DNA of 20,960 nt from a virus. The stretch is from IMG/VR virus record IMGVR_UViG_3300010430_000528, positions 1-20,960 of that record; one strand, 5' to 3'. This document shows, in pieces, positions 278-8,288 of the stretch. How positions within the stretch are numbered: position 1 is the first letter of the stretch; every line of letters starts with the position of its first letter. The translations under genes were made by a program, and so were the position numbers. Under the pieces are notes generated by a model. That model was not told where the DNA came from. It worked only from the letters and a program-made list of their open reading frames with translations, and searched no databases.

Positions 278-1702
278 GTGAATCTATCCGAACAAGAATT
301 GGATCAGCTAGCGGCCGAAGCGTGGCGGCTATTCTTGCCGGATTTCTCCGAAGAAATATCGCGGGGGCTTTGGAAGCCTTACAAACATTTGCTCTACACG
401 GCCGATCTAATTGAGGAAGCGATCCACAACGGCGGCGGGCGCGTGATCATAAACATGCCCCCACGCCACGGCAAAAGCGAAATGTTATCGCATTGGCTAC
501 CGGTATGGTTTCTAGAGAACTTCCCCACGAAGCGGATTATTAGCACCAGCTATTCGGATTCGCTTGTAACTGATTGGGGTCGAAGGGTTCGGAACACTAT
601 GATCGAGTCCGAACGGTTACAAACGAAACCACGGGCGGACAAATCAGCGGCGGCGAATTGGGGCACACGGGTAGAGGGACAAAAAAGCACGACGCAAGGC
701 GGGTATAAGGGGGCTTCGGTAGGTGGGCCGATTACGGGTCTAGGTGGAGATTTGCTATTAGTTGACGATCCGCACAAAAATTGGGTCGAGATTAGTAGCC
801 CCACCTACCGCAAGCGCGTGATCGATTGGTTTAATTCGACCTTCTACACGCGAGCGGAGCCGAACGCGTCGATCATCGTTATCCAAACCCGCTGGCACGA
901 AGACGACCTAACGGGCTACCTGTTAAACGAACATACCGACGATTGGATCCACGTTAACTTACCAGCGATAGCCGAAGCCGACGATCCGATCGGTCGTGCA
1001 CCGGGCGAAGCGCTATGCCCTGAGCGCTACGGCGTCGAAGACTTGTTAAAGATTAAGGAAAGTATCGGGGAGCAAATGTTTGCCGGTCTTTACCAGCAAC
1101 GCCCCGCACCGGCCGAAGGCGGGATGATTAAGCGCGAATGGTTAAAGCATTGGACCGAACTGCCTAGCGAATTCGACGAAATGATCCAGGCTTGGGATAT
1201 GTCCTTTAAGAAAACCAAAACCGGATCGTTTGTGGTGGGTCAGATATGGGGTCGAAAAGAAGCGAAGTATTATTTAATTCACCAAATCCGCGAACGAATG
1301 GATTTCGCTGGTACAATTCATTCGGTTCGTTTAATGTCTGAATCGTGGAAGCGTACCACGACCAAACTTGTAGAGAATGCGGCGAACGGTCCGGCGGTTA
1401 TCTCTACGCTCAAAGACGAAATACCCGGCATAGTTCCGGTGAGTGTCAGCGGCGAAAGTAAAGAGTCAAGGTTAGCTTCGGTTTCCCCGCTCTTTGAAGC
1501 GGGTAACGTATACTTACCCCATCCGAGTTTACATGGTTGGGTTAACGAGTTGATCGAAGAACTCGTAGGATTTCCGAACATGCGACACGACGATCAAGTA
1601 GACGCTTGTACGCTCGCACTAAATCGTTTCAAGAATGCGGCGTTTGTAAACTTTGAACTAGATCTAAAAACCGGTACGCAAGCAAACCCGTGGCGCTTAT
1701 GA
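278..1702 (+). CDS. terL: terminase large subunit (packaging ATPase and nuclease)
   Basis: This 474-aa protein is the motor that pumps phage DNA into the prohead and cuts the concatemer. The N-terminal ATPase carries a Walker A-type loop, PPRHGKSE, at residues 61-68; a Walker B, DLLLVDD, at 158-164; and a coupling motif, IIVIQTRWH, at 199-207. The C-terminal RNase H-like nuclease has a first acidic residue in QAWDM (D307), a second in LVEN (E366) and the closing HDDQVD (437-442). All catalytic positions expected of the family are present and the length is normal. GTG 278 is the only sensible start, because the same frame has a stop at 272-274 and the next ATG is inside the Walker A region. 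The gene ends in an ATGA overlap with the next ORF and is followed by the portal two genes later, the usual packaging order. Confidence 0.95.
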   Translation: MNLSEQELDQLAAEAWRLFLPDFSEEISRGLWKPYKHLLYTADLIEEAIHNGGGRVIINMPPRHGKSEMLSHWLPVWFLENFPTKRIISTSYSDSLVTDWGRRVRNTMIESERLQTKPRADKSAAANWGTRVEGQKSTTQGGYKGASVGGPITGLGGDLLLVDDPHKNWVEISSPTYRKRVIDWFNSTFYTRAEPNASIIVIQTRWHEDDLTGYLLNEHTDDWIHVNLPAIAEADDPIGRAPGEALCPERYGVEDLLKIKESIGEQMFAGLYQQRPAPAEGGMIKREWLKHWTELPSEFDEMIQAWDMSFKKTKTGSFVVGQIWGRKEAKYYLIHQIRERMDFAGTIHSVRLMSESWKRTTTKLVENAANGPAVISTLKDEIPGIVPVSVSGESKESRLASVSPLFEAGNVYLPHPSLHGWVNELIEELVGFPNMRHDDQVDACTLALNRFKNAAFVNFELDLKTGTQANPWRL

Positions 1703-1881: not shown

Positions 1882-2099
1882 AAAATGTATTAAGCGTTTT
1901 GTTTTTGGTGTGCGTCGTGGGGTGTTGCACCGGCTTAGTTTATTTAGAAACGACTAGGCCCATAATTAAAAACGACGAATGCCCCGTACCGATCGAATTA
2001 AGCCAACCTATCATTGCTAAGGAACCGGAGCCGGTCACGCTACTTACTCCGCCGGCTCCGGTTTCTAAAACCTTACGTTGTGTTTGCGAGGAAATGTAA
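1878..2099 (+). CDS. small predicted lipoprotein or membrane-anchored protein
   Basis: A 73-aa protein whose best start is GTG 1878, overlapping the previous stop (GTGA). This puts a signal sequence at the very N-terminus: MKNVLSVLF, then LVCVVGCC. VVGC (residues 13-16) fits a bacterial lipobox, which would make Cys16 or Cys17 the lipidated residue. The remaining roughly 57 residues are Pro-rich (for example EPEPVTLLTPPAPV) and carry three further Cys. A short, Pro-rich lipoprotein resembles outer-membrane spanins of the Rz1 type. However, no inner-membrane spanin, holin or endolysin is visible nearby, so lysis is only one option; superinfection exclusion is another. It may alternatively be a simple one-span membrane protein. 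It ends in a TAATG junction with the portal gene. Confidence 0.6.
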   Translation: MKNVLSVLFLVCVVGCCTGLVYLETTRPIIKNDECPVPIELSQPIIAKEPEPVTLLTPPAPVSKTLRCVCEEM

Positions 2100-3538
2100 T
2101 GCCACCTAAGATCGATTTAGATATTCTCGGCACCACCGGCCTACGGCAGTCCGGCGGATTCGTAGACGAGGAGTTTCTACGCACGCTACGCGGACGCAAA
2201 GCCGCACAAACTTATATCGAGATGCGCGACAATTCGCCGATCATCGGCGCTATGCTTTACGCGATCGAAAGTTTACTAAGCCAAGTCGAGTGGAGGATCG
2301 AACCGGCTAACGGAACATCCGAAGCGGAAGCCGAAGCCGATTTCGTTCGCGGCTGCATGAACGATATGTCTATGACTTTCGACGATTTCGTTTCGGAAGT
2401 CGTTTCGTTTATCCCGTTCGGTTGGTCGTACTTCGAAACACTCTATAAAATTCGACGTGGACCCGACGCAAAAGATCCGCGCATGCGTTCGGCGCATAGC
2501 GACGGCAAAGTAGGATGGAGCGGTTTAGAGTTACGCGCGCAAGAAACTCTAGATCGTTGGGTCTTCGGTGATCACGGTGAGATCTTGGGCATGATTCAGT
2601 TGGATATGTACGCGAGCAAAGGGCCCGTGCTTATCCCTATCGATAAGGCTTTGTTATTCCGCACGAAATCCCACAAGAATAACCCCGAAGGCAAATCGTT
2701 GCTACGTCCGGCGGTTATCGCTTATCACTACATAAAGCGGATTCAGGAATACGAAGCTATTGGCATAGAGCGTGATCTAGCGGGCTTGCCTGTATTTGAA
2801 GTACCTCTAGAGCTATTAGATCCCGACGCACCGGAAAGTTTGAAAGCACTACGCCGGCAATTCGAAGCTATGATCCAGCAAATTCGCGTAGACGAACGCA
2901 TGGGCGCAATCGTGCCTAGCGAGAAAACGCGCGACGGTATGGATAGCGGCTATAAGTTTAAGCTGCTTTCATCCGGTAGCCGTAAACAGATCGACGCGGA
3001 CAAAGTGATCAAGCGCTACGAATCGCGTATGGCTATGACGCTGCTAGCTCAGTTTATCTTGCTTGGGCAAAACGCCGGGCAAGGATCTAGCTTCGCGCTA
3101 GCCGCTAGCTCTACCGAATTGTTTTCGGTCGCGCTTGGTTCTTTGATGGAACAGATCACAGCGGTCTTTAACAAGTTCGCGATCCGTAAACTTCAGGAGT
3201 TAAACAACAAGCCGATCGAACTTGATCCGAAGTTAGTACACGGCGATCTCGAAACGCCGGCGCTTGGCGAGCTTTCAGCCTACGTTGCAGCCTTGTCTAG
3301 CGCGGGACTAATCACCGGCACACCGGCGGTTAAGAACAAGCTGCTAGAAGTCGCTTCGCTACCGGTACCGACCGAGGAAGAGCGGGCCGAAATCGAAGCG
3401 CAACAATCTCAACAACAAGAAATGGAAGAAAAAGTTACACAACTTGAAGGCGAGTTAGCGGCGGCACAAACTCCGACCGAACCGGAGCCCGAAGAAAACG
3501 AAGACGACGAAGACGATGACGAAGACGACGAAGAATAG
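2099..3538 (+). CDS. portal protein, DUF935 (Mu gp29-like) type
   Basis: A 479-aa protein forming the dodecameric ring at the head vertex through which DNA enters and leaves. The start ATG 2099 is preceded by GAGGAA (2088-2093) and overlaps the upstream stop (TAATG); an in-frame ATG at 2078 would sit inside the previous gene without support. The family-typical core is visible: an N-terminal region with YIEMRDNSPIIGAMLYAI, then FIPFGWSYFETLYK, the LLFRTKSHKNNPEGKSLLRP segment around residues 190-205, and a Gln-rich helical C-terminus. The last 25 or so residues are almost purely acidic (EDDEDDDEDDEE), and the repetitive GAC/GAA tract encoding them also contains the start of the next gene. Immediate neighbours (terminase, head protease) agree with the call. 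No MuF-like minor head protein follows it. Confidence 0.92.
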   Translation: MPPKIDLDILGTTGLRQSGGFVDEEFLRTLRGRKAAQTYIEMRDNSPIIGAMLYAIESLLSQVEWRIEPANGTSEAEAEADFVRGCMNDMSMTFDDFVSEVVSFIPFGWSYFETLYKIRRGPDAKDPRMRSAHSDGKVGWSGLELRAQETLDRWVFGDHGEILGMIQLDMYASKGPVLIPIDKALLFRTKSHKNNPEGKSLLRPAVIAYHYIKRIQEYEAIGIERDLAGLPVFEVPLELLDPDAPESLKALRRQFEAMIQQIRVDERMGAIVPSEKTRDGMDSGYKFKLLSSGSRKQIDADKVIKRYESRMAMTLLAQFILLGQNAGQGSSFALAASSTELFSVALGSLMEQITAVFNKFAIRKLQELNNKPIELDPKLVHGDLETPALGELSAYVAALSSAGLITGTPAVKNKLLEVASLPVPTEEERAEIEAQQSQQQEMEEKVTQLEGELAAAQTPTEPEPEENEDDEDDDEDDEE

Positions 3539-3713
3539 CGGCGGGCCCCGCTTGCAATGCCGCAAGTGTGGCGACGTTATCCAAAGCATGTTTCGGCATG
3601 ACTTCAAGTTTTGCAAATGCAAAGCGGTCTTTATCGACGGCGGCACCGATTACACGCGGTGCGGCGGCGAAGAGAGACACATGCGATGGCTAGACGGAAA
3701 TGATGAACTTTAG
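3516..3713 (+). CDS. zinc-ribbon mini-protein (DUF7695-like)
   Basis: A 65-aa protein starting inside the portal's acidic tail, with a 23-base overlap. It shows CRKCGD at residues 15-20, then a FRHDFKFCKC segment about 11 residues later, then FIDGGTDYTR. This arrangement (CxxCGDxI, HDF, CxC, hydrophobic, DGGxDY) closely matches small phage proteins usually annotated as hypothetical zinc-binding proteins, which I recall as DUF7695. Four Cys plus a His are candidate zinc ligands. The start at 3516 lacks a Shine-Dalgarno; a later TTG directly before the first Cys is possible but less natural. Its function is unknown; such proteins are scattered through many phage structural and early regions. 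Confidence 0.65.
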   Translation: MTKTTKNSGGPRLQCRKCGDVIQSMFRHDFKFCKCKAVFIDGGTDYTRCGGEERHMRWLDGNDEL

Positions 3714-3939
3714 CCTAGCCCGGCCGGATTACTACGCCGTCATGCTTCACCGTTTAGAGCAAATCGAAAAACTCATAGAAGATGATTTGCGTGGATCCGT
3801 CGAGCGCTTGCAATATGCGAACGGCGAAGAATTAAAGATCTTAGAGCTTTCTAGAAAGTTGCATGATTTAACCGCTAGCCTTAATGGGTTAGCCGAAGTT
3901 TTGTTTGATTCAAAAGGAGCCGATCAAAATGCCCCCTAA
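3700..3939 (+). CDS. small helical hypothetical protein between portal and head protease
   Basis: A 79-aa ORF overlapping the previous gene by 14 bases and the next by 11. Start ATG 3700 is immediately followed by a second ATG (3703), and either may be used. The protein is predicted helical: heptad-like stretches LHRLEQIEKLIEDDL and LKILELSRKLHDLTASLNGL suggest a short coiled coil. No cysteines or catalytic motifs are visible and I do not recognise a family. Its location between portal and protease is where many phages have small scaffolding or minor head proteins, so a structural role is plausible but unproven. Confidence 0.55.
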   Translation: MMNFSLARPDYYAVMLHRLEQIEKLIEDDLRGSVERLQYANGEELKILELSRKLHDLTASLNGLAEVLFDSKGADQNAP

Positions 3940-6058
3940 GAAGAAAAAAACACGCGCCTACCTTGAGGAAGCGTTAGCCGCTGCTAAGAAACAGTTACCC
4001 GGCTGGCAGTATGCCTTAATACATGCGGCGGCGTTCCCACGAAGCGGAGCACGTGCAAGACACAACCCCGATCACCTAGAGAAATTAGCGATACAGCAAA
4101 TTTCTGCAAAGGAGATCAAGGGCATGCGGTCGAGCGAACTTAAAAAATTGTTCGGCGACCTGTCTAAATTCTTCAATGCCGCACGGCGTAAGAATCAAGA
4201 CGTAGGCTACTTCGAGCGCAAAGGCAAAACCGTATACAACGAATTGAAGCGGCGCGGCGTCGAAGTCAAAGGCGCGCTAGCGGATGCGTGTAAGACTTGT
4301 GAAACGAGGAAAGAAGCCGGCGGCTACGTTGCGGCGATTCGTAATAGCGATTTTACGCAAGAAACGATCGGCGAAGCGTTTAAAAAGGCGTATCGCGAGC
4401 TAAAGGAGATCCTAGCCAAAGGCGAAGTAGAGTCGATCGCCATGATGATCGGGCCACCGGGCGCGGGTAAGTCTACCTACGTAGAGAATAACCGCAAATC
4501 GGGCGTGCTCTATTTCGATTCAGTAGCCGCACGCCGAAGCGCACGCAAAGCGTTGCTTAACATCGCTCAGACCTATGGCGTACCCGTAGACGCGATCGTT
4601 ATGGGCACTAACGGCGACACGTGCTTAAAGCGTAACGAAGCGCGTGACGAAAAAAGGCGCGTACCAGATAGCGCGGTACTTTCGGCGATCGAACTTATGG
4701 ATCAGGAACCGCCGATCCCAGAGGAAGGCTTTAGAGCGATCGAGATCGTCAAGTACGCCGAACGGGCACCGGACCTAGAGCCGGCCGAAGACCCCTTAGA
4801 GGGGGCTTTTAACGCGTTTAAGGCATCCGGTAACCCCGAAGACATAGTAAATACGATAACCTTCGTCGCGAAACACTACGACGGGGGCCTATATCTTGAG
4901 GATTTGAACGGAGATCGCCACATTGGCGAAGCTGAAACGGATCTAGAAGTTGAAGACGGCGATACGCTGGTATGTAAAGTAGAGGCGGGCCGGCCAGTGG
5001 TCCTAGGCTTCGCGGACGCGGCGCTAGCGGATCTAGCGGACGATGCGGCCGTAGCCGTCACCAAAGCCGCTGAGATCGAAAAAGCGCGCAACTTCGTGCC
5101 GTTTTTGGGCTCTAGCGAGCCTAGGATCACGTTCGTAGGCGCAAACCCCGGCCCGATTGAAGCCGCACGCAAAGAAGCCCTAGTAGGGCCCGACGGCGTG
5201 ACGTTTAAAGATGTCTATTTAGCCCCCCTAAGTATGCAAAAAGCAGACATAGCGATCGGTTTCGTCAATCCGGCGAATGTAGGGACAAACGAAACGTGGG
5301 CGGTATGGTTTCAAAAAGAGATCGACCGGCTAAAAGGCTTCGGCCCGGTCGTGGCGCTTGGCAAGTCTGCAAAGGAAGCCCTAGGCGATCGCGCGGATTT
5401 CGTTTTGCCACACCCTTCGGCCGTTCGTCGGTTCGGCAATTCCGGCGAAGTTGATCGGAAAGTCAAGAACATAAAAAAGGCGCTTGACGTTTTTTCGCTA
5501 AACGCGCAAAATGACGACGCATCGGTTAGTGACCAGAGCGACACGGAAACTAACTCGATCGGCCCGACTGATTCTAACAGCGGGAACGAATCGGGAAACT
5601 TAGTTAAGTTAACTAAGGCGTCCGAGGAGAAACAGATCGTTTATGGCGTGGTCCTAGATCCTTATGTGATCGACGCGCACGAAGACTGGATCCCCCCGGC
5701 CGAAGTTGAGCGCACCGCGCACGGATTCGTTAAAGACTCTCGCGTTATTGGTTTGCAGCACCGCGAAGCGGCGACGGCTAAAGTAGTCGAAAGTTGGATC
5801 GAAACATATCCAACCCCTTTCGATTACGAACAAGCCCTAGCCAACCAACCCCACAAAGTTTCACGTAGGGAGTTTGGTAGCGACGTGATCCATTCCGGCA
5901 CTTGGGTGCTAGGTGTGGAATTAGCAGATCAGGAATGGGAAGCCTTTAAATCGGGTACGTTTACCGGATTCTCGATCGGCGGCTCGTCTTTTAAAACGAG
6001 CATGACAACGGACGTAATGCCCGAAGTCGAATACGTTGATCTTGTTCCCGAATCTTAA
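3929..6058 (+). CDS. multidomain head protease: P-loop kinase, UDG-like and XkdF domains
   Basis: A 709-aa fusion starting at ATG 3929, 9 nt after AAGGAG (3914-3919). Residues 1-160 are basic and helical, ending near a CKTC pair (121-124). Residues about 168-275 form a P-loop kinase of the polynucleotide-kinase/zeta class: GPPGAGKST at 175-183, an Asp in LYFDS, then RNEARDEKRRVP and EEGFRAIEI. Residues about 397-520 resemble the uracil-DNA-glycosylase superfamily: FVGANPGP (402-409), LVGPDG (418-423), VVALGKSA and a late HPSA (495-498). The usual family 4 GEAPG is GANPG here, so glycosylase activity is uncertain. A Ser/Asp/Asn-rich linker (527-560) leads to an XkdF-type putative serine protease (about 567-690): IDAHEDWIPP, GLQHRE (H611) and FTGFSIGG (S682). 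XkdF proteins sit between portal and scaffold and are thought to mature the head, which matches this position. The upstream domains are an unusual addition. Confidence 0.85.
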   Translation: MPPKKKKTRAYLEEALAAAKKQLPGWQYALIHAAAFPRSGARARHNPDHLEKLAIQQISAKEIKGMRSSELKKLFGDLSKFFNAARRKNQDVGYFERKGKTVYNELKRRGVEVKGALADACKTCETRKEAGGYVAAIRNSDFTQETIGEAFKKAYRELKEILAKGEVESIAMMIGPPGAGKSTYVENNRKSGVLYFDSVAARRSARKALLNIAQTYGVPVDAIVMGTNGDTCLKRNEARDEKRRVPDSAVLSAIELMDQEPPIPEEGFRAIEIVKYAERAPDLEPAEDPLEGAFNAFKASGNPEDIVNTITFVAKHYDGGLYLEDLNGDRHIGEAETDLEVEDGDTLVCKVEAGRPVVLGFADAALADLADDAAVAVTKAAEIEKARNFVPFLGSSEPRITFVGANPGPIEAARKEALVGPDGVTFKDVYLAPLSMQKADIAIGFVNPANVGTNETWAVWFQKEIDRLKGFGPVVALGKSAKEALGDRADFVLPHPSAVRRFGNSGEVDRKVKNIKKALDVFSLNAQNDDASVSDQSDTETNSIGPTDSNSGNESGNLVKLTKASEEKQIVYGVVLDPYVIDAHEDWIPPAEVERTAHGFVKDSRVIGLQHREAATAKVVESWIETYPTPFDYEQALANQPHKVSRREFGSDVIHSGTWVLGVELADQEWEAFKSGTFTGFSIGGSSFKTSMTTDVMPEVEYVDLVPES

Positions 6059-6081: not shown

Positions 6082-6933
6082 TTGGGCGACACTATTACCA
6101 TGCTGTCTGGCTTGCAGACGCACGAAGTCAGTCTAGTTGATCGGGGCGCTAACCGAAGACGGTTCGCCTTAACTAAAACGGAGGACAAATTCATGTCTGA
6201 GATTTTGGAAGCCGTACTTGCGACAGAAGCCGAAGGCGAAGAAGCAGTACGCAAAGCGCTGGAAGAAGCCGGCGTTTCGGAAAAAGGAATGGAAGGCGCT
6301 ATTGGCGCATTCCGCACGTTGCAGGCTTTCAAAGATGAGCTTAACGAAGATAACGTTAAGGGAATTTTGAAAGCAGCCGGATTCGATCCTGAAGAGGAAG
6401 AGGAAGGCGAAGAGGAAGGCGACGAAAACGATCCGTCGGAAGAAAAAGTGGCTAAGTCACTTGATGATCTTCCGGCCGATGTTCGTGCAATGGTTGAGAA
6501 ATCGTTCAAGGCGCAAGTGGAAACACAAAAGCAACTTGACGATGTGCAAAAGCAACTCGACACGGAGCGCGAGACACGCCTTAATAAGTTTTACGTCGAG
6601 AAGGCGGAAAACAGTTTCGCACATATCCCCGGTGATAGTGCTGAGCTAGGCGATACACTTCGCAAAATTCACGCCCTGGATTCTGAGTTAGGTAACGCGG
6701 TCGAAAAGGCACTGGAAGGTGCCGAGAAAATGATCGCGGAAGGAACCGTTATGAATACTCAGGGAGCGGTTAAGCCGGTAGGCGCTGGCGATGCTTGGGC
6801 GCAAATTGAGACTTTGGCACAAGAGCGAGTGACCAAGGGCCTTGATAGCGATAAGCACAAAGCGATCTCGGCTGTAATTAATGAAAACCCAGAACTCTAC
6901 AACGAGTATTTGGGCGAAACCCAAGGAGCATAA
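6082..6933 (+). CDS. scaffold-like head protein with XkdF C-terminal signature
   Basis: A 283-aa protein read from TTG 6082, which has TAGGAG (6067-6072) 9 nt upstream; the first ATG in frame is 6100. Residues about 8-32 (LQTHEVSLVDRGANRRRF) match the EVSLVDxGAN segment that normally closes XkdF-type proteases. The rest looks like a scaffold: acidic helical sequence, a Glu/Asp-rich stretch (about 102-122, EEEEEGEEEGDEND), then a coiled-coil region around QVETQKQLDDVQKQLDTERET. It lies between the protease and the DUF2190/capsid genes, the expected scaffold position, and would be removed by the protease. A strong internal start at 6193 suggests a second shorter product. I see no catalytic residues here. 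Confidence 0.75.
   Translation: MGDTITMLSGLQTHEVSLVDRGANRRRFALTKTEDKFMSEILEAVLATEAEGEEAVRKALEEAGVSEKGMEGAIGAFRTLQAFKDELNEDNVKGILKAAGFDPEEEEEGEEEGDENDPSEEKVAKSLDDLPADVRAMVEKSFKAQVETQKQLDDVQKQLDTERETRLNKFYVEKAENSFAHIPGDSAELGDTLRKIHALDSELGNAVEKALEGAEKMIAEGTVMNTQGAVKPVGAGDAWAQIETLAQERVTKGLDSDKHKAISAVINENPELYNEYLGETQGA
6179..6192 (+). promoter_or_regulatory. internal Shine-Dalgarno deciding a nested start
   Basis: CGGAGG at 6179-6184 followed by an 8-nt spacer leads to ATG 6193, inside the scaffold-like gene. This is one of the stronger ribosome-binding sites in the window, and it would serve no other frame. It supports internal initiation of a 246-aa scaffold form. Confidence 0.6.
6193..6933 (+). 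CDS. nested in-frame scaffold product from an internal start
   Basis: ATG 6193 lies 8 nt after CGGAGG (6179-6184), a better Shine-Dalgarno than the one serving the longer frame. Initiation here gives a 246-aa protein starting MSEILEAVLATEAEGE, that is the acidic, coiled-coil scaffold part without the EVSLVD segment. Phages such as lambda make a scaffold from an in-frame internal start inside the protease gene (C/Nu3), so an analogous two-product arrangement is reasonable. Whether both products are made, or only this one, cannot be decided from sequence. Confidence 0.55.
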   Translation: MSEILEAVLATEAEGEEAVRKALEEAGVSEKGMEGAIGAFRTLQAFKDELNEDNVKGILKAAGFDPEEEEEGEEEGDENDPSEEKVAKSLDDLPADVRAMVEKSFKAQVETQKQLDDVQKQLDTERETRLNKFYVEKAENSFAHIPGDSAELGDTLRKIHALDSELGNAVEKALEGAEKMIAEGTVMNTQGAVKPVGAGDAWAQIETLAQERVTKGLDSDKHKAISAVINENPELYNEYLGETQGA

Positions 6934-6936
6934 GTT

Positions 6937-7314
6937 ATGGCTTATGAAAAACGCGGGGAGACTCTCCCCGGTATTGCGGCCGGCGCCGATCTTTCCTCTA
7001 CGGGTCAACACCGCTTTGTAGATCTTGACGGATCCGGCGAAGCGGTTTTGGCTGGTGCGGGAGCAGCGGTAGCCGGAGTTTTGGAAAATGCACCGGCACA
7101 AGGCGAAGCCGCTGCGATTATGGGACCGGGATCGGTTTCCAAAGTCGAAGCGGGGGCGGCTGTATCGGCCGGCGCGGATGTAACTTCGGACGCTTCCGGG
7201 CGTGCGGTTACTTCGGCTTCCGGTAACTATATCGCGGGCAAGGCGATCAATGCCGCTGGCGGCGCGGGCGAACTCATTTCCGTTTGGATTTGTCAGCCCG
7301 GACGCACGGCGTAA
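6937..7314 (+). CDS. DUF2190-type capsid decoration protein
   Basis: A 125-aa Ala/Gly-rich protein with the look of the DUF2190 family, small beta-rich proteins that trimerise on the capsid surface and stabilise it. Visible hallmarks are a short N-terminus followed by QHRFVDLDGSGEAVLAGAG, a GVLENAPAQGEAAAIM segment, AAVSAGADVTSDASGRAV, and a closing GNYIAGKAINAAGGAGELISV; these alternating short strands and AG turns are typical. AAGGAG ends 7 nt before ATG 6937, and the gene follows the scaffold by 3 bases and precedes the capsid gene. Length agrees with the family. Confidence 0.85.
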   Translation: MAYEKRGETLPGIAAGADLSSTGQHRFVDLDGSGEAVLAGAGAAVAGVLENAPAQGEAAAIMGPGSVSKVEAGAAVSAGADVTSDASGRAVTSASGNYIAGKAINAAGGAGELISVWICQPGRTA

Positions 7315-7328: not shown

Positions 7329-8288
7329 ATGCCTCAACCACATTTGGGACAGGTTCATGTTAACCGACCGCTTACGAGCCATTCGGTTGCATTCCTGCAA
7401 GATATGGGCGGCTTTATCGCTCCGCGAGTGTTTTCAAACATTCCGGTACAGAAAAAGTCGGACCTTTATTATTCGTATCCTAAACAGCAATGGTTTCGAT
7501 CCGACGCGCAACTTCGCGCGCCCGGTACCGAGTCCGCTGGTAGCGGTTACGAGCTAGACACCGATCAATATTCTTGCGACGTGTTCGCACTTCACAAGAA
7601 CATTGACGATCAACTTCGCGCAAACGCGGATGCCCCTATCGATCTCGATAAGGAAGCAACCGAGTTTGTAGCGCGTCAACTTATGTTGAAGCGGGAAAAA
7701 GATTGGGCCTCTAGCTTTTTTGCTGCGTCTACTTGGACCGGCTCGACTACGGGCGGCGACGTTACCCCTGGTACTCTTTGGAGCGCCGGCGGTTCCGATC
7801 CGTTCGGTGACATGCGCGCCGAAGTTGCAGCTATTCATAAAAAGACCGGTTACAAGCCTAACAAGGCTGTAATGGGTCGCGAAGTTTGGGACATTCTTGC
7901 GGATCACCCTGATTTCCTAGAGCGTATCAAGTACACTCAAACCGGCATCGTCGGTCCTGATTTGCTTGCTGCCGCTTTGGGTCTCGATGAAGTTTTGATC
8001 GGTTTCCCGATTGAAGACACCGCTGCCGAAGGTGCAACCGAAGCACTCGATTACATTTACGGTAAAAATGTTTTGTTCTGTTACAGCGCACCGCGTCCGG
8101 GTCTTATGACTCCTAGCGCGGGTTACACTTTCTCGTGGTCCGCCTTCGGTGGAAATGACATGGGAATTCGTATGAAGCGTTTCCGAATGGAGCAACTAGA
8201 AGCCGATCGCGTAGAAGGCTCTATGGCTTACGATATGAAACTCGTAGCCCCTGACCTTGGCGCGTTTATGACCGGCGTTGTAGCTTAA
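7329..8288 (+). CDS. major capsid protein (HK97-fold type)
   Basis: A 319-aa protein that by position (after scaffold and decoration protein, before neck genes) and sequence is the shell subunit. Features matching phage capsid proteins of this size are an N-terminal arm, the LKREKDWASSFF helix near residues 118-129, the PNKAVMGREVWDILADHPD spine-helix segment around 180, a glycine-rich loop, and a C-terminal YTFSWSAFGG, MGIRMKRFRMEQLEADRVEG beta segment. I infer the HK97 fold from this and from family practice, not from a structure. It has a strong GGAAGG leader (7315-7320) 8 nt before ATG and distinct codon use: of 25 Leu codons 11 are CTT, 6 TTG, only 3 CTA and none TTA, as expected of a highly expressed gene. 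No N-terminal delta domain is apparent. Confidence 0.9.
   Translation: MPQPHLGQVHVNRPLTSHSVAFLQDMGGFIAPRVFSNIPVQKKSDLYYSYPKQQWFRSDAQLRAPGTESAGSGYELDTDQYSCDVFALHKNIDDQLRANADAPIDLDKEATEFVARQLMLKREKDWASSFFAASTWTGSTTGGDVTPGTLWSAGGSDPFGDMRAEVAAIHKKTGYKPNKAVMGREVWDILADHPDFLERIKYTQTGIVGPDLLAAALGLDEVLIGFPIEDTAAEGATEALDYIYGKNVLFCYSAPRPGLMTPSAGYTFSWSAFGGNDMGIRMKRFRMEQLEADRVEGSMAYDMKLVAPDLGAFMTGVVA

Follow-up and report, generated by a model that had tools for sequence, protein, structure and literature searches.

The window, by which we mean the whole stretch of 20,960 bases analysed here, is the record of an uncultivated virus and encodes a head and contractile-tail module, including a tail sheath protein (phrog_205, E 1.6e-90). 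Between the portal gene and a probable scaffold gene lies one open frame (Table 1), whose ATG at position 3929 is preceded at good spacing by a Shine-Dalgarno-like AAGGAG, as read from the sequence. The initial annotation had placed a kinase, a UDG-like segment and an XkdF-type protease together in this single 709-aa frame, and located the frame in the gene slot of the head protease. Both statements hold: the Pfam matches to XkdF, AAA_33 and UDG each exceed the curated gathering score, and the genes follow in the order TerL, portal, fusion, scaffold, cement, capsid. The motifs were also correctly positioned (GPPGAGKST at residues 175-183, FVGANPGP at 402-409, HPSA at 495-498, H611 and S682).

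Table 1. Genes of the head module in the window and features of the fusion protein
Feature	Position	Strand	Evidence
Terminase large subunit	278..1702	+	phrog_38, E 5.8e-104
Portal, Mu type	2078..3538	+	PF06074, E 4.1e-25; phrog_113, E 2e-67
709-aa fusion: N-domain, Pnkp-like kinase module, UDG-like domain, XkdF protease	3929..6058	+	open frame, Pfam, synteny
Helical N-domain, family-specific, residues 9-111	3953..4261	+	own HMM, E 2e-35
P-loop kinase module, bacterial-Pnkp type, residues 169-280	4433..4768	+	AAA_33, TIGR04075 and CthPnkp matches
Walker A GPPGAGKST, residues 175-183	4451..4477	+	translation
Kinase junction, residues 191-194, at which 41 residues of the Pnkp core, among them the general-base Asp of relatives, are missing	4499..4510	+	alignment to 4jst
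UDG-superfamily domain, family 4/UdgX-like fold, residues 380-527	5066..5509	+	PF03167, E 2.8e-6; PDB profile; model
Ser/Asp/Asn-rich disordered linker between UDG-like domain and protease	5516..5599	+	low pLDDT; linkers in relatives
XkdF/S78_2 protease domain, residues 559-705	5603..6043	+	PF14550, E 7.5e-23
Probable scaffold	6082..6933	+	phrog_13547, E 2.1e-17; role inferred from position
Cement/decoration protein	6937..7314	+	PF09956, E 1.2e-6
Major capsid protein	7329..8288	+	phrog_1005, E 7.2e-88

In the protease domain, the match to PF14550 (Peptidase_S78_2/XkdF) covers residues 559-687 and reaches 81.3 bits against a cut-off of 24, and neither H611 nor S682 varies among the aligned XkdF relatives. 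Residues 530-555 of the preceding linker have a pLDDT under 50 in the AlphaFold model, and similar linkers are found in the relatives. At the other end of the protein, the N-domain (about 105 amino acids) is common to 39 of the 93 XkdF relatives sampled, as detected with our own HMM; comparison of its profile with Pfam and PDB gave no convincing match.

The gene neighbourhood is conserved. Where the contigs of proteins combining the UDG-like domain with XkdF leave room (the window included), a portal gene is found upstream in 28 of 28, a cement gene downstream in 29 of 29 and a capsid gene downstream in 24 of 24; for the group with several enzyme domains the corresponding figures are 12 of 15, 22 of 26 and 18 of 22. 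A gene of the probable-scaffold type comes after the fusion in most relatives. Cultivated phages with the same gene order carry XkdF alone in this slot (156 aa in Pakpunavirus C11, 134 aa in rV5), which identifies the N-terminal parts of the fusion as additions. Many relatives contain an extra gene between portal and fusion, by eye a MuF-type minor head protein; positions 3539-3928 of the window have no MuF-like gene and hold short frames only (for example, one of 81 aa at 3694-3936).

Kinase module and UDG-like domain

The AAA_33 match falls into two stretches, the better of them at residues 197-258 (E 1.9e-11), and the closest kinase is that of bacterial Pnkp (TIGR04075, E 5.4e-7; CthPnkp in PDB, E 2.5e-5). 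In the alignment to 4jst (CthPnkp), residues 169-190 of the window protein correspond to 10-31 and residues 195-280 to 77-162, so that residues 32-76 of CthPnkp are faced by residues 191-194 only and about 41 residues are gone. In Pnkp kinases this missing stretch contains the general-base Asp and a substrate-contacting Arg; the module retains the Walker A motif expected of a Pnkp 5'-OH kinase and lacks the general-base Asp with its nearby Arg. The P-loop assigned initially as PNK/zeta-type stands, the kinase being of Pnkp type. Since the stretch carrying the catalytic Asp of related kinases is missing, 5'-kinase activity of the module appears doubtful. In the AlphaFold model the kinase region has low pLDDT. 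No convincing kinase was found in any other sampled XkdF relative, a kinase-only scan yielded no relatives, and a search against 50,697 phage records gave one match, which was insignificant.

For the UDG-like domain, profile and model agree. The Pfam match spans residues 393-503, the domain profile finds family-4 UDGs among PDB structures (E 3.6e-14), and residues 390-525 of the AlphaFold model lie mostly above a pLDDT of 85. The best structural matches of this model are the family-4 UDG 1ui1 (Z 15.2, rmsd 3.0, 142 residues aligned) and UdgX (Z 12.7). In BFVD, matches to the model include the UniProt entries A0A516MCN4, A0A516KYX7 and A0A6J5PIT0 (a zeta-toxin-domain protein), candidates for a second protein with kinase, UDG and XkdF. 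Judged by the model, the domain has the UDG fold of family-4 type, which bears out the superfamily-like segment of the initial annotation. Among NCBIfam models, UdgX and UDG family 4 give the ligase-bearing relatives their highest scores, although these do not reach the cut-offs.

Motif 1 of the window protein reads GANPG, with A405 in place of the Glu of GEAPG. The replacement had been noticed before; it marks the whole family rather than this protein alone, the Glu being missing in 60 of 61 members. The catalytic Glu of usual UDGs is therefore absent, while the fold is retained. The HP motif (H495 in the window protein) is kept in 60 of the 61, residue 411 is acidic in all 61, and R414 is kept in 59; such conservation points to an active or binding site under selection.

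XkdF fusion proteins among the relatives

Searching viral contigs with peptide patterns from the whole window protein found no relatives; scans with its XkdF tail did. After removal of redundancy the set comprises 93 XkdF proteins, the majority taken from viral contigs and a few from annotated phages. It is a sample and not a census, each scan being capped at 80 loci, and contig fragments shorten some of the proteins. Of two scans of a genome collection, the first found nothing and the second a single locus (L128), which lies in a Deltaproteobacteria MAG contig. Domains were counted with HMMs built on family sequences: besides the N-domain mentioned above, we found the UDG-like domain in 64 of the 93, an ATP-dependent DNA ligase in 20, an NTase in 18, a phosphoesterase of one type in 25 and of another in 7 (about 30 together), a HAHG repeat domain in 9, and a 2H and a methyltransferase domain in 4 each. 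For several relatives, Pfam independently backs the ligase, UDG, 2H, methyltransferase and XkdF assignments. Almost all multi-domain members have XkdF at their C-terminus or close to it, and the order of domains is N-domain, NTase, (HAHG), (methyltransferase), ligase, UDG-like domain, LigD-type phosphoesterase and XkdF, with few exceptions (in L051 the phosphoesterase precedes the UDG-like domain, and 2H lies towards the N-terminus). Fusion of XkdF to two nucleic-acid enzymes had initially been taken to be uncommon; fusions to such enzymes are instead widespread among uncultivated viruses and occur in a cultivated phage too. What recurs in the survey of XkdF homologues is the pairing of UDG-like domain and protease, not the kinase.

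The ligase motifs of the relatives look intact: motif I Lys is present as read from the sequences, and nearly all members keep motif IV (SEGxxxK) and the region of motif V, the ligase of L019 being a remnant. The model of the 1,194-aa protein L076 shows the fold of an ATP-dependent DNA ligase at about residues 265-627 (Z 23.3 to 2cfm). Ligases filled the fold-search list for this protein; for the phosphoesterase, the profile has weak matches, the best with E 0.006, mostly to LigD phosphoesterases, and HxDxR is kept in nearly all members. The putative NTase is assigned from a GS...DxD pattern and a weak Pfam hit, its profile giving no convincing match in PDB. In many members the UDG-like domain is shortened, which together with the ligase remnant of L019 demonstrates decay within the family.

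A scan with other XkdF types recovered more proteins of the ligase-UDG-phosphoesterase kind as well as further fusions, to NUDIX, histidine phosphatase, D12 adenine methyltransferase and other methyltransferases. NUDIX is fused to XkdF at L189:3202-5175 (plus histidine phosphatase) and, plus a methyltransferase, at L185:2530-4866 and L194:2206-4863; a D12-class adenine DNA methyltransferase accompanies XkdF at L181:2683-4908 (two such stretches), L200:3112-4926 and L055:3943-6366. At L208:1636-4857 an XkdF protein of 1,074 aa matches ADP-ribosyltransferase below threshold and contains a P-loop-like motif (GTTASGKS); having no kinase match in Pfam or PDB, it was not counted as a kinase. The HAHG repeat domain, located at L012:4723-5052 and at eight other loci between N-domain and UDG-like domain, consists of recurring His-rich GGxHxH units and is possibly a metal-binding module.

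We also examined the enzymes elsewhere in the viral genomes. In each of 10 viral records, the fusion carries the sole detectable UDG domain. Five records contain an ATP ligase; G006 has a second copy of it and the other four do not. A search of the 10 records, some of which may be fragments, for Ku found none and thus gave no sign of a complete NHEJ system.

Proposed function and rival explanations

Head maturation proteases in general work inside procapsids. On this background, the architecture suggests that a DNA-repair kit could be packed into the particle by fusion to the head protease. The XkdF part would bring the fusion into the procapsid, in the way head proteases enter it, and would then cut its own linker as well as the scaffold; once freed, the N-terminal modules would remain beside the DNA inside the head and act there or after injection, where they might bind damaged (uracil or abasic) bases and heal and seal nicks and ends. 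The initial annotation had raised packaging and delivery as a possibility, which the present data support in part. To this reading of the window protein, an XkdF-tailed polyvalent protein which cleaves itself in the procapsid and whose modules act on viral DNA, we give close to an even chance. The case for action on nucleic acids is strengthened by the relatives, because they add ligase, LigD-type or 2H phosphoesterase, NTase and methyltransferases in the same slot, and the long disordered linker in front of XkdF is what release by cleavage would require. A cleavage site in the fusion could not be identified. The points against this reading are that none of the relatives has a homologue of the kinase, that the Glu of motif 1 is lost family-wide and that the Asp stretch of the kinase is missing. 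Since the window protein carries no ligase and both of its modules lack a usual catalytic residue, they may mainly bind DNA or ATP. A broader proposal, for which we are inclined to give only about a third of our belief, is that the family represents a virion-packaged DNA-repair polyprotein with enzymes for healing and sealing ends, widespread in uncultivated tailed viruses, which is released by its protease and mends or protects the genome on entry, the divergent UDG fold serving as a damage reader. If this were true, the UDG-like domain would constitute a new catalytic or damage-binding class.

The modules might instead act in the producing cell, on replicating or packaging DNA, with XkdF docking repair enzymes on the procapsid so that nicks, uracils and bad ends are mended before or during packaging and none of the enzymes is injected. 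The gene does adjoin portal and terminase, and since a further ATP ligase or UDG is absent from most of the searched records, the fusion could be in use throughout infection; but this explanation offers no reason for joining the enzymes to a protease whose normal place of action is within the shell, and it leaves the methyltransferase, NUDIX and possible ART fusions at the same place unexplained. We grant it a modest chance. A slightly smaller one goes to the reading that the kinase and UDG parts of the window protein are degenerate, non-catalytic elements which bind DNA or act as scaffolding, anchoring the protease or organising DNA in the head. The 41-residue gap that takes out the catalytic Asp region of the kinase, the nearly universal loss of the GEAPG Glu and the decay described above would all fit such an origin, whereas the intact Walker A motif, the conserved HP, acidic 411 and R414 of the UDG-like domain and the preserved ligase motifs of the relatives would not be expected from it.

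Modules directed at the host or its defences, repairing RNA or tRNA after the attack of an anticodon nuclease or removing nucleotide signals, are improbable in our view. The kinase is of the type found in bacterial RNA-repair Pnkp, and relatives contain NTase and 2H phosphoesterase domains, the latter having been proposed, as parts of polyvalent proteins, to target RNA or nucleotide signals (PMC5512222); against this, the ligases group with DNA ligases, the phosphoesterase resembles the DNA-repair domain of LigD, and the UDG fold is DNA-directed. That no other collected relative has a convincing kinase could finally be attributed to a chimera of metagenome assembly, the real protein being composed of N-domain, UDG-like domain and XkdF. 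We regard such an artefact as very improbable indeed: the frame is open throughout, the flanking domains are in frame and in the correct order, base composition does not change, and the segment sits in a slot where relatives hold other inserted domains.

Self-release of packaged modules, the reading we prefer, would bear on a poorly known matter, namely how phage DNA is protected or repaired once it has been packaged and before the first genes are expressed. With DNA ligase, phosphoesterase and UDG-like modules built into the polypeptide of a head protease, and this in the head operon of many environmental viruses, repair of DNA by virion-borne enzymes becomes directly testable. XkdF proteins may quite generally carry enzymes into the particle (repair, methylation, NUDIX and others). 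Where a protein is annotated only as head protease, RNA ligase or DNA methyltransferase, its N-terminal part merits re-examination.

Comparison with known systems

At the level of single domains, family-4 UDG and UdgX share the fold and the HP motif with the UDG-like domain, but differ in having the motif-1 Glu and in the NCBIfam scores, which remain below the cut-offs for our sequences. Bacterial Pnkp has in common with the window module the Walker A motif and, CLKRNEAR included, the C-terminal half of the kinase core; the window protein is devoid of the Pnkp phosphatase and ligase modules and of the stretch of about 41 residues with the general base. LigD, the ligase of bacterial NHEJ, likewise pairs an ATP-dependent DNA ligase with a 3'-phosphoesterase, as do the relatives of the window protein. 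In the latter, however, neither Ku nor the LigD polymerase domain was seen, the order is another one and XkdF is terminal; the window protein itself has neither ligase nor phosphoesterase.

XkdF proteases of known systems (XkdF of B. subtilis PBSX, ORF12 of psiM2, those of Pakpunavirus and Vequintavirus) agree with the window protein in the domain, its His and Ser and the gene slot, but consist of XkdF alone (134-156 aa) or with a C-terminal extension, and contain no nucleic-acid enzymes. A jumbo-phage survey names XkdF once, as an alternative head protease. Some XkdF genes of Pseudomonas, Rhizobium and other phages are labelled DNA methyltransferase or DNA methyltransferase/prohead protease. 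For the two that we checked, AU075_gp169 of Pseudomonas phage C11 (L129:2396-2866) and a gene of Rhizobium phage RHph_Y1_11 (L131:2495-3133), we rejected this label, as neither protein has a Pfam methyltransferase domain; the misannotation has likely been propagated (also in phrog_1530). A cultivated phage with a fusion of this kind is Arthrobacter phage Salgado, whose gp18 (NC_055033, phrog_14859; L130:1805-2926) has a 2H phosphoesterase in front of XkdF and is annotated as RNA ligase only; kinase, UDG-like and ligase modules are absent from it. In the archaeal virus ANMV-1 (KP703175, 3200-5800; L056), a gene just after the portal encodes ligase and then phosphoesterase-like stretches, with no XkdF domain and no Pfam UDG hit. 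The portal gene of this virus is annotated as a MutT-like hydrolase and matches Phage_portal_3 in Pfam.

The general concept is that of the polyvalent proteins of phages and conjugative elements, multidomain mosaics of nucleic-acid and effector enzymes which are encoded beside portal and terminase, are predicted to be packaged and injected, and include proteases, 2H domains, NTases and methyltransferases (Iyer et al. 2017, PMC5512222). None of XkdF, DNA ligase, glycosylase or LigD phosphoesterase is named among their domains in the passages searched, and the open-access literature searched, which mostly excludes subscription papers, yielded no description of the fusion family. Shuffled enzyme domains and the portal/terminase neighbourhood are common to polyvalent proteins and the XkdF family, and the latter is distinguished by XkdF as the common C-terminal carrier and by modules for end-healing, sealing and UDG-like functions. 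Multidomain polyvalent proteins, predicted to be packaged, and the lone XkdF were known; new, as far as the open-access literature and the consulted parts of these sources go, are the fusions of XkdF with ligase, UDG-like domain and LigD-type phosphoesterase.
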